From: Desulfobacterales bacterium | GTDB taxonomy: Bacteria; Desulfobacterota; Desulfobacteria; Desulfobacterales; JANQIE01 | NCBI GenBank assembly: GCA_028282295.1 | Contig: JANQIE010000188.1 | Span: 1-43,019 of the forward strand | Length of the DNA: 43,019 bases | Reading direction: 5' to 3' | In this document: piece by piece, positions 28,914-37,800 of the stretch | Numbering within the stretch: the stretch's first letter is position 1 | Layout: each line of letters begins with the position of its first letter | Notes under the pieces: model-generated | Databases searched by the model: none | What the model saw: only the letters and a program-made list of their open reading frames with translations | What the model was told of the DNA's origin: nothing | Program-made: the position numbers and the translations under genes

Positions 28914-28958
28914 AGTGCCCATCCGGAAATGGTAGATTTTGGTTTCCGGATGGACACT
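28914..28958. repeat. Palindromic repeat (copy B) inside the riboswitch leader
   Basis: AGTGCCCATCCGGAAA (28914-28929) and TTTCCGGATGGACACT (28943-28958) form a hairpin with one mismatch and a 13-base loop containing TAGATTTTGG. The pairing extends outward through CTTAGCG/CTAGCGAG-like sequence. It lies between the cobalamin aptamer and its terminator. It is the same family as 25156-25321 and 36826-36864. Confidence 0.75.
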
Positions 28959-29064
28959 AGCGAGAATTTTCCCAAACAGCCTGGTCTGCGAACGCGCCAA
29001 GCGGTCCTGGAATCCTCTCGGCATTGCATTTAAGTCGCTCCGCAAAAACGCAACACGCACACCA

Positions 29065-29292
29065 TCAAGGCAGGTCTTCTGACTTCCCCGTTTTTTAGTT
29101 GCCTTCCCAGCCGATTGCGGCCAGTGACAATATTTCGGTACTGCTTGCTGCTTGCGCAGCCACCTACTAAAAAACGCTTTTCCAATAGAAAAGACAGGGT
29201 CACAGCGGCGGGACCGTTCCAGATTTACACTGAATTCCCTTTTCAGCCCGAGCCGGCCGTGCAATGACGCAACCGCCGGTCCAGGCGCCTCG
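29065..29292 (-). promoter_or_regulatory. Cobalamin riboswitch
   Basis: Adenosylcobalamin-sensing RNA of the RF00174 type. In RNA order on the minus strand: GGGAATTCAGTGTAAATCTG, then ACGGTCCCGCCGCTGTGA (29199-29240), then GTCACTGGCC and GGGAAGGCAAC, and the 3' hallmark GGAAGTCAGAAGACCTGCC (29069-29087). All conserved aptamer blocks are in the right order and spacing. It is read toward the unknown 86-residue gene. Coordinates of the 5' end are approximate. Confidence 0.92.
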
Positions 29293-29330
29293 ACGGAATT
29301 GAGAAAAAACTCAATTTCGATATATCTGCA

Positions 29331-35099: not shown

Positions 35100-36737
35100 T
35101 TAACTATTCAGAATCTTGCGCGCCACCTCGTCGTTCACGTCGGACACATGCATGATGCCGGTCTCGCGCTCGGTTTCGCGATTGGCGGCAAACAGGTCGC
35201 TACGGGTAATCCGGTTCAGCGTAAACTTGCGCGCACCGGCCATCAACTGCTGCAAGCCGCACGCGAGTTTGTCGGCCAGGGTCCAGAAAGCCAAGGCGCC
35301 ATAGGGGATATGTTTCATCTCGTCGGCACCGACTTTCTTTTGAACATCAAAATAACCGGCGAAGATTTCTTCGGCGGTCGCGCCCATGCTGCGAACCGAT
35401 TTGGGCAATTCACGCCAGTTGCCGTTAACCGCCTCCTTGTTCTCCGGTTTTAGAACCCCTTCAATATTAGCTCCCAGAAAACCGGGGATCATCAGGGAGC
35501 GCCCCATGCAGACCAGCTTGGTGTAAGGTGCGCCAAGCGCCAGCGCTTTGAAAATACTGTCTTCCAGAGCAAAACCGCCGGCAAAGGACATGTCGACCAC
35601 CTGTTGTCCCTTGGCTGCCAGCATGCCGGCATACTCATACGCCTTGGCGTGCAGGAAGATCGACGGCACGCCCCAGCTCTGCATCATGTTCCACGGGCTC
35701 ATGCCGGTGCCGCCGCCGGAACCGTCGATTGTAAGCAGGTCCAGATCGGCGTCGGAAGCAAACTTGATTGCCATGGCCAGTTCTTCCATGCCGTAGGAAC
35801 CGGTCTTGAGCGAGATGCGCTTAAAACCAAGGCTGCGCAGATAGTCCACGGTTTTCATGAAATCCTCGCGCACGTCGTCGACGCTGGCCAGATTTGTGGC
35901 CCCCAGGCGACTGTGCCGCGCAAACGATTTAATGGCGCCACTGTCAAACGCCGCCCGGACTTCGGGCAGCTCAGGATTCGGATCAACCACATACCCTCTT
36001 TTCCTCAGGAACATGGCATAATCGATACTGGTCACCTGGATTTCACCGCCGATGTCCTTGGCGCCCTGCCCCCACTTCAATTCGATGATGACCTTGTCGC
36101 CGTACTTCTGCGCCACGTATTCGGCCACACCGTTGCGCGTATCTTCGACATTGAGCTGGACAAACACCCCGCCGTAGCCGTCATAGTAGCGCAGGTAGGT
36201 GTCGATGCGCCGGTCAAGCTCCGGCGCCTTGCTGATTTTACCCCGGTTGATCTCCGACGCCAAATCGACCCCCACCACGTTCTCACCGATGACAATCGGC
36301 ACCCCGACCAGGGAGCAACCGGCGGCAAAGGCATCCCAGTATTTGGCCGCAATAAACGTGGACCCCAGGGCGCCGGTCATGATCGGCACCCGCGCTCTGG
36401 TTTTAACCTTGCGGCCGAATTGCGTGGAAATATCGACGTTGGGAAAGATGCAGTCGTCCGGGTCGTTGGAAAGATCGCCGTTCAACCCGTATGCGCCGTA
36501 AGCGTACCCCTGGATGCGCAGGGCGTTGTACGAAACCCCTACATGCGTGGTATTGTTGGCGCCCGCCGTTACCGTACCGAAATCGCGCGGGTAAAGCAGT
36601 TTACGCCCCTGCAGGCCGGCCAACCAGGTTTCACACCTGCCTTCACAATCCGCCCGGCACAACGTACACAGACTCGACTCAGCCGGATTGCCCCGGTTAA
36701 CGGTTCCAAGAGCATCATTCTTTTTTTCGAAACGCAT
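35100..36737 (-). CDS. FMN-binding glutamate-synthase-domain protein
   Basis: A 545-residue protein made of one glutamate-synthase-type FMN barrel. The core motifs include VIIELKWGQGAKDIGGEIQ and LLTIDGSGGGTGMSPWNMM, the phosphate- and FMN-binding part. It lacks the N-terminal glutaminase of the GOGAT large subunit. The N-terminus has C24-x2-C27-x3-C31-x3-C35, which may hold an iron-sulfur cluster. ATG 36737 follows GAGGAGG. The reaction is unknown: related single-domain proteins are called archaeal-type glutamate synthase. The leader (36801-36969) looks like an ANTAR-controlled terminator, and the ANTAR gene is upstream, so control by nitrogen or redox state is probable. Confidence 0.87.
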   Translation of the reverse strand: MRFEKKNDALGTVNRGNPAESSLCTLCRADCEGRCETWLAGLQGRKLLYPRDFGTVTAGANNTTHVGVSYNALRIQGYAYGAYGLNGDLSNDPDDCIFPNVDISTQFGRKVKTRARVPIMTGALGSTFIAAKYWDAFAAGCSLVGVPIVIGENVVGVDLASEINRGKISKAPELDRRIDTYLRYYDGYGGVFVQLNVEDTRNGVAEYVAQKYGDKVIIELKWGQGAKDIGGEIQVTSIDYAMFLRKRGYVVDPNPELPEVRAAFDSGAIKSFARHSRLGATNLASVDDVREDFMKTVDYLRSLGFKRISLKTGSYGMEELAMAIKFASDADLDLLTIDGSGGGTGMSPWNMMQSWGVPSIFLHAKAYEYAGMLAAKGQQVVDMSFAGGFALEDSIFKALALGAPYTKLVCMGRSLMIPGFLGANIEGVLKPENKEAVNGNWRELPKSVRSMGATAEEIFAGYFDVQKKVGADEMKHIPYGALAFWTLADKLACGLQQLMAGARKFTLNRITRSDLFAANRETERETGIMHVSDVNDEVARKILNS

Positions 36738-36800: not shown

Positions 36801-36885
36801 AAAAAGGCGTCCGCTCTTTCTGGTTAGTGCCCATCCGGAAATAGTAGATTTCCGGATGGGCACTAGTTAAAAGAGCCCAGACGCC
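36801..36885 (-). terminator. Leader terminator of the glutamate-synthase-like gene
   Basis: On the minus strand GGCGTC-TGG-GCTCTTT pairs with AAAGAGC-G-GACGCC (arms 36870-36885 and 36806-36819), followed by UUUUU (36801-36805). The terminal loop contains the palindromic repeat 36826-36864. It lies 64 bases before the start codon and directly after two hexaloop hairpins, so it is an attenuator rather than the end of a gene. Confidence 0.82.
36826..36864. repeat. Palindromic repeat (copy C) in the loop of a terminator
   Basis: AGTGCCCATCCGGAAAT (36826-36842) and ATTTCCGGATGGGCACT (36848-36864) are exact 17-base inverted arms around AGTAG. It sits in the loop of the attenuator stem at 36806-36885, prolonging it into one very long hairpin. 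It is the most perfect of the three copies of this family in the window. Confidence 0.85.
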
Positions 36886-36904
36886 TTTGTCTCAGTCAGA
36901 TCAT

Positions 36905-36969
36905 CCCGTACCACGTTGTACGGGGGTATTACACAAAATTACCCGTAGCTATCGCCGTTGATAAGCGGG
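36905..36969 (-). promoter_or_regulatory. Tandem hexaloop hairpins, candidate ANTAR-protein target RNA
   Basis: RNA order on the minus strand. Hairpin 1 (36942-36969) has the stem TATC/GATA with further CCCG/CGGG pairing and the six-base loop AACGGC. A 17-base linker follows. Hairpin 2 (36905-36924) is CCCGTAC-AACGTG-GTACGGG with a perfect seven-base stem. Both loops are six bases and have A at position 1 and G at position 4, as known for ANTAR targets. The terminator follows. The adjacent upstream gene encodes a GAF-ANTAR protein. Confidence 0.75.
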
Positions 36970-37074
36970 CCGTGCATTAAAAAAACTCACCTGAAATTAG
37001 TTTAACTTGATTATTTTGTCAAACTTAAAAAAATAAAGTTCTTCCAAGCAAATGCCCGCAAAACACCGGCCGCC

Positions 37075-37800
37075 TCAATCTTTGGCCAGCTCCTCGGAAA
37101 GTAAAACCGCCTCAGCCACCTGCAGCATCGATTTGCGCCGGTCCATACTGCGCTTCTGAAGCCAGCGATAGGCCTCGTCTCCCTTCATTTTACGGCGGTG
37201 CATCAAAACTTCCTTGGCCCGCTCCAACAGTTTGCGTGTTTCCAGTTCTTCCTGGATAATTTTGGTTTTGACCATCAACTCGGTATTCAAAATGGCCACC
37301 GCCGCCTGGTTGGCGATGGCGGTCAGCAAGTTGACATCGGTCCTGGAAAAACTGTGCGGCTTGGAAGTAAAGCAATTCAACACCCCGATCACCCGCTCGT
37401 CCTTGAGTTTGAGCGGCACCCCAATCATGGAAACCAGCCCGAGCCGTTTGGCCATCTCCTTTTCCTTGAAGCGGCGGTTGCGCAGCACATTCTTGATCGT
37501 CACCGGCCGTTTGGTGGTCACCACTTGTCCGACTACCCCTTCGTCGGTATTGAGCGTGCGATCCTTTACATAGTCCGGGGCAATGGCCTGGGTGGCTTTG
37601 AGCCGGATCTGAGCCGGCGACGTCGAATCGTCCACCAGCCACAGCGAACAAATGGCCACACCGGTCACCTTGGCGGTCACCAGGACGATCAGTTTGAGCA
37701 AGTCTTCCAGAAACAGATCCGACGTGATGGCATGGCTGATATCGGTGAGCGCCTTAATATAATGATCGTAAGTCTGCGGCTCAATCTTTTCAATGGTCAT
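37075..37800 (-). CDS. GAF-ANTAR antitermination regulator
   Basis: A 241-residue cytoplasmic RNA-binding regulator. A GAF domain (about residues 25-172) has the usual core (TAKVTGVAICSLWLVD, TLNTDEGVVGQV, MIGVPLKLKDERVIGVLNCF). A coiled linker and a C-terminal ANTAR three-helix domain (about 183-236) follow, with ELETRKLLERAKEVLMHRRKM and the signature EAYRWLQKRSMDRRKSM. ANTAR proteins bind tandem hexaloop RNA hairpins and prevent termination. Its target is probably the leader at 36801-36969, immediately downstream. The GAF ligand is unknown (small molecule, redox or nitrogen signal). ATG 37800 has a weak GGGAAA site. It is divergent from sbcD. Confidence 0.93.
   Translation of the reverse strand: MTIEKIEPQTYDHYIKALTDISHAITSDLFLEDLLKLIVLVTAKVTGVAICSLWLVDDSTSPAQIRLKATQAIAPDYVKDRTLNTDEGVVGQVVTTKRPVTIKNVLRNRRFKEKEMAKRLGLVSMIGVPLKLKDERVIGVLNCFTSKPHSFSRTDVNLLTAIANQAAVAILNTELMVKTKIIQEELETRKLLERAKEVLMHRRKMKGDEAYRWLQKRSMDRRKSMLQVAEAVLLSEELAKD

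Follow-up and report, generated by a model that had tools for sequence, protein, structure and literature searches.

The leader at about 36987-36738 on the minus strand, together with the GAF-ANTAR gene that adjoins it, very probably forms a cis-encoded ANTAR-responsive transcription attenuator for a glutamate-synthase-like gene. It lies in a 43,019-nucleotide stretch of DNA from a sulfate-reducer-like bacterium of the Desulfobacterales (the window). On the sequence data, this core unit is supported by conservation, covariation, the overlap of one hexaloop hairpin with the terminator, gene adjacency and genome-wide co-occurrence (Table 1). The fold energy of the P0-P1 hairpin region is not unusual against shuffles (z = -0.9), thus the case rests on conservation rather than on energy.

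An earlier note had described this locus as a complete cis-encoded antitermination unit. The core of that inference is retained but the pair of hairpins it named is not, since its pair was P0 and P1 whereas the canonical target is P1 and P2. The two hairpins it described, with loops AACGGC (36954-36959) and AACGTG (36912-36917), can be read in the sequence, both carry A1 and G4, and both form in the minimum free energy (MFE) structure; the 17-nt linker it gave between them holds if the lower stem is included in the first hairpin. The intrinsic terminator does end in five T at 36805-36801, with the start codon 64 bases on at 36737. P2 (loop AAAGGC), the hairpin that competes with the terminator, had been taken as terminator only; it was overlooked because its loop and 3' arm double as the 5' arm of the terminator.

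Table 1 Features of the leader and its flanking genes (window coordinates).
Feature	Coordinates	Strand	Basis
Promoter-like site TTGACA, 17 nt, TAATTT	36994..37022	-	sequence; inference
GAF-ANTAR protein gene, 241 aa	37075..37800	-	Pfam GAF/GAF_2; ANTAR PF03861, E = 1.5e-18
P0 hairpin TTATC-AACGGC-GATAG, extra upstream hexaloop	36949..36964	-	MFE fold; aligned in L010, L011 and L012
P1 hexaloop hairpin CCCGTAC-AACGTG-GTACGGG	36905..36924	-	48-leader alignment; model R1, 40.8 bits
P2 hexaloop hairpin AGAC-AAAGGC-GTCT; loop and 3' arm are the terminator 5' arm	36879..36892	-	alignment; fold
Intrinsic terminator; 5' arm 36888-36869, 3' arm 36820-36803, T run 36805-36801	36801..36888	-	fold
41-bp perfect palindrome TA-GTGCCCATCCGGAAAT-AGTAG-ATTTCCGGATGGGCAC-TA, in the terminator loop	36825..36865	.	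miniature copy of genome-wide repeat
Regulated gene, 545-aa glutamate-synthase-domain (FMN-type) protein, N-terminal CxxCxxxCxxxC	35100..36737	-	Pfam

The predicted terminator is stable (-57.4 kcal/mol, z -9.8). Folded alone, the segment 36879-36930 gives P1 and P2; when the downstream part is included, the terminator displaces P2, its pairing beginning with the first base of the P2 loop. Folding of growing leader prefixes from an assumed start at 36987, an equilibrium rather than a kinetic calculation, placed the appearance of P0 at nt 46, P1 at 82, P2 at 110 and the terminator at 184, with P2 opening once the terminator arm appears. The promoter-like site upstream was not listed by a consensus promoter scan because its -10 element is weak. 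The three closest leaders align with its TTGAC and with a downstream ACTAA-T, both without variation.

Genome contigs scanned with the enzyme provided 80 loci, most of them labelled as Desulfobacterota and some as Clostridia such as Moorella. The signature GAC-ANNGNN-GTC is present in the leaders of 55 of these loci and in the window, and nearly all of those leaders also have, 28-47 nt upstream, a P1 closed by AC...GT, together with a terminator that starts in the P2 loop. Across 48 aligned leaders the P2 core (GAC...GTC, A1, A2 and G4) is invariant; since its inner pairs never vary, P2 is uninformative on compensatory change. P1 supplies that information. Five of its seven pairs are changed on both sides and about 91.3-93% of its cells are paired, against 79.2% in shuffles. 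The covariation score of 0.421 compares with 0.165 in shuffles, none of 500 shuffles scored as high, and sliding the partners destroyed the signal. In the 81 homologous leaders kept by a filter that required this very pairing, the pairing partners of the P2 loop and 3' arm lie in the segment ahead of the T run. This pattern identifies the second hairpin of the earlier note as P1, and the hexaloop that shares bases with the terminator as P2. The earlier note had named loss of its two hexaloops from homologous leaders as grounds for refutation; conservation holds for the AACGTG hairpin, as P1, and for the overlooked AAAGGC hairpin, as P2, and fails, in most leaders, for the AACGGC hairpin. The P1 loop of the window is itself unusual: positions 5 and 6 of AACGTG do not follow the usual AAYGGC, and one of the 81 leaders shows this loop.

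Variations on the arrangement occur elsewhere. One leader (L148, 1508-1650) has a single P1 followed by two successive P2/terminator units, ahead of a paralogous glutamate-synthase-like gene. Additional A1/G4 hexaloops between the terminator and the start codon were found in 10 of the 81 leaders against 1.9 expected (L021, L024, L035, L064, L066 and L070 are examples), and several of these are homologous copies.

A covariance model built here from the homologous leaders (R1) matched the window at 40.8 bits (genome-wide E 3e-7), as P1-P2 and not as the pair previously named. Over the entire genome, 5.46 Mb long and estimated to be complete, the second-best match scored 19 bits; none of the weak matches inspected by eye (19 bits or less, the two strongest among them) had a P2-plus-terminator arrangement. 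The single ANTAR domain (PF03861) in the genome belongs to the gene adjoining the leader, and the window leader is the only convincing ANTAR target. An ANTAR gene lies no more than 3.5 kb upstream at 29 of 47 loci with the element and at none of 21 without it (p = 4e-7). Across 291 genomes of the order, 125 have both an R1 match and an ANTAR domain, 19 R1 only, 43 ANTAR only and 104 neither (Fisher p = 2e-24, a value that ignores phylogenetic relatedness). The 19 R1-only genomes make the link imperfect, and incomplete assemblies may account for some of them. At Rfam gathering thresholds the whole window matched no ANTAR-type family, the only matches being SRP RNA and a cobalamin riboswitch.

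In other genomes of the order the same ANTAR-type leader also stands ahead of a gene for an MvhD/FlpD-like subunit (L152, L153, L158, L159, L164, L165, L168, L170 and L171). From reading the sequences, we take the next frame to be MetV-like (L153, L158, L164, L170 and L152) and the one after it, where the stretch reaches, to be MetF-like. The ANTAR motif would thus be linked to a methylene-THF reductase operon, with a possible connection to nitrogen control.

P0 is a feature of the window and its nearest relatives. The three closest leaders (L010, L011 and L012) have a hexaloop at the same place with A1 and G4 kept in all, and in L012 P0 and P2 persist while the P1 stem has one mismatch. Two of the five P0 pairs are changed on both sides among these four sequences, which is suggestive rather than strong evidence of covariation. 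Elsewhere upstream hexaloops are near chance (6 of 81 leaders against 2.9 expected) and extra hexaloops in the linker are absent (0 of 81), which confines P0 to a small clade. Its best interpretation is a third site specific to this clade, most likely giving the same GAF-ANTAR protein one more place to load.

The loop of the terminator is occupied by a palindrome that is absent from the homologous leaders. Sampled by sequence pattern only, its arms recur in the genome as 243 exact half-copies (702 with up to one mismatch); in 57 other genomes of the order they occur at most once per genome. On this pattern the repeat is a lineage-specific MITE-like family; it had no match among phage records. 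The genome commonly has longer copies, about 165 bp in length, that share these ends; the 41-bp short perfect form occurs once. From the long copies, the short form could have arisen by deletion between ATTT repeats. Many half-copies of GTGCCCATCCGGAAAT lie at contig ends, and the elements of about 165 bp have TA flanks. Within the window a shortened imperfect copy also separates a cobalamin riboswitch aptamer from a terminator-like hairpin at about 28883-28848 (window 28915-28962 and 29052-29307, minus strand), so that two regulatory leaders in the window carry the repeat. Fold predictions leave the terminator arms intact in the presence of the palindrome. Terminator closure in the prefix calculation moves from nt 144 without the palindrome to nt 184 with it, which would about double the stretch over which P2 is free, from about 35 to about 74 nt. 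The palindrome is best explained as a decayed insertion, one that did not disrupt the switch and that delays closure of the terminator. Our search of open-access literature text found no repeat described within an attenuator.

We propose that the leader acts as an ANTAR-responsive attenuator. By default, RNA downstream of P1 would form the terminator, with the 5' arm beginning at base one of the P2 loop, and transcription would end about 64 nt ahead of the start codon. When active, the GAF-ANTAR protein would bind first the P1 hexaloop and next P2 as each emerges; bound P2 would stay closed, the terminator would not form and the glutamate-synthase-like enzyme would be made. Sequence and comparison show the hairpins with their conservation and covariation, the overlap of P2 with the terminator, the lone ANTAR gene and lone target in the genome, and their adjacency; protein binding, the direction of control, the signal and the product of the enzyme are what we infer. 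The signal would be a small molecule bound by the GAF domain, probably one reporting nitrogen status. A more elaborate scheme, in which the leader is a three-site attenuator with capture at P0, transfer to P1 and then to P2, and the palindrome serves as a built-in delay that widens the time for P2 capture, seems to us unlikely. Were it true, insertion of a repeat would have tuned an RNA switch.

The proposal of P1 and P2 as the switch has to be set against other readings of the same leader. P0 and P1 could themselves be the functional dual hexaloop, with a separate terminator downstream and no competing P2; both loops have A1 and G4, both hairpins fold stably and P0 is kept in the three close leaders. 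We regard this as very improbable, because P0 is missing from most homologous leaders, where upstream hexaloops are near chance, whereas P1 and P2 are conserved in the 48 aligned leaders; only P2 overlaps the terminator, and R1 matches P1-P2 rather than P0-P1. Somewhat less improbable, though still poorly favoured, is a decayed unit in which the repeat insertion and the unusual P1 loop have disabled the switch, leaving constitutive termination or a different control. The palindrome is indeed a recent, lineage-specific insertion within the terminator and the AACGTG loop is rare. Against this, nothing is lost from the terminator arms, the T run, the P1 stem (seven perfect pairs), P2 or the ANTAR gene, and the insertion sits in the apical loop, with the same terminator arms predicted with and without it.

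Chance is the remaining alternative: the repeat, which is the strongest hairpin of the leader, might serve as a plain terminator or mRNA-stabilising element beside hexaloops of no meaning. This we consider barely credible, as leaders free of the repeat still conserve the hexaloops and the terminator, and P1, P2 and an overlapping terminator were reproduced together in just 2 of 5000 dinucleotide shuffles of the leader, a count that leaves conservation out. The antitermination unit built on P1 and P2 remains the preferred reading. It has the structure by which an ANTAR dual-hexaloop attenuator is defined (PMC3369931). ANTAR control of glutamate synthase genes had also been predicted before (PMC3369931), so the unit belongs to a known kind, to which the extra hexaloop and the repeat in the terminator loop are two unusual additions. 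In open-access literature text we found no description of a three-hexaloop leader ahead of one terminator, nor of a mobile-type repeat inside the terminator of an ANTAR unit.

The Pfam matches of the upstream gene agree with the earlier assignment of GAF and ANTAR domains. Residues were mapped onto EutV by alignment to 6wsh and the published contacts (PMC8934654). The RNA-contact residues R142, K143, K149, Y164, M172 and R175 of EutV are identical in the window protein and K147 is replaced by R. Four contacts differ (E160 to G, R168 to Q, N173 to D and R177 to S), in changes common to most of the family, where the E160 position is mostly G or A. In EutV, an alanine mutant of E160 binds RNA 60-fold more weakly (PMC8934654). 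By this alignment the core of loop recognition appears to be kept, and the fine contacts to G4 may differ.

The regulated gene had been described as encoding an FMN glutamate-synthase domain. The PF01645 match bears this out in part only, covering positions 189-300 of 369, and the genome has three better PF01645 matches elsewhere, one of them in a 1642-aa frame. PF01645 is the sole Pfam match, with no N-terminal glutamine amidotransferase domain found. The clustered cysteines of the GOGAT [3Fe-4S] site are absent after the FMN domain, the C-terminal third having C410 and C493 only. Four N-terminal cysteines (C24/C27/C31/C35) are invariant in 26 homologues of 73-83% identity. A search by sequence found no solved structural relative. 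An AlphaFold model of moderate confidence (mean pLDDT 65) matches FMN TIM-barrel oxidases, of the alpha-hydroxyacid oxidase kind, with TM of about 0.3-0.5; it points to an FMN TIM barrel, and matches at such low TM do not name the reaction. With a partial domain match and other GOGAT features absent, the previous description as an enzyme of unknown reaction stands, and ammonia- or ferredoxin-dependent formation of glutamate would be a guess.

In NasR, nitrate is sensed by the NIT domain; the window protein has a GAF domain instead. The NasR/nasF leader of Klebsiella oxytoca (PMC7496416; ANTAR domain of 4akk) is otherwise similar in being served by a one-component ANTAR antiterminator with a non-receiver sensor and in its place in nitrogen metabolism. 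The EutV/EutW-controlled eut leaders of Enterococcus faecalis (PMC3369931, PMC8934654) also have two A1/G4 hexaloops, of which the second overlaps the terminator 5' arm, and an ANTAR protein with which the window protein shares most RNA-contact residues. In contrast to that system, the window sensor is a GAF domain and not a phosphorylated receiver, the target is a glutamate-synthase-like gene, the equivalents of E160 and R177 differ, and the leader has P0 and the repeat in the terminator loop.

From the EutV structure came the proposal that an ANTAR dimer engages a single hexaloop at any moment, moving on from P1 to P2 while transcription proceeds (PMC8934654). A leader with three conserved hexaloops ahead of a single terminator, and a 39-nt insertion between terminator arms, offer natural tests of this sequential-binding model, which predicts that an extra loading site or delayed terminator closure would give more readthrough. 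Predicted ANTAR targets already include glutamate synthase genes of Desulfotomaculum reducens and a nitrogen regulon of D. acetoxidans (PMC3369931), which share with the window the RNA motif before glutamate synthase genes and the nitrogen theme. Those targets are from Firmicutes and are covariance-model matches, with no alignments from the group of the window, whereas the present unit represents a Desulfobacterota-type family with an adjacent GAF-ANTAR gene and a three-hexaloop form. In this genome, the 48-leader alignment and covariance model point to one protein serving one target, a simpler arrangement than in the regulons examined to date.
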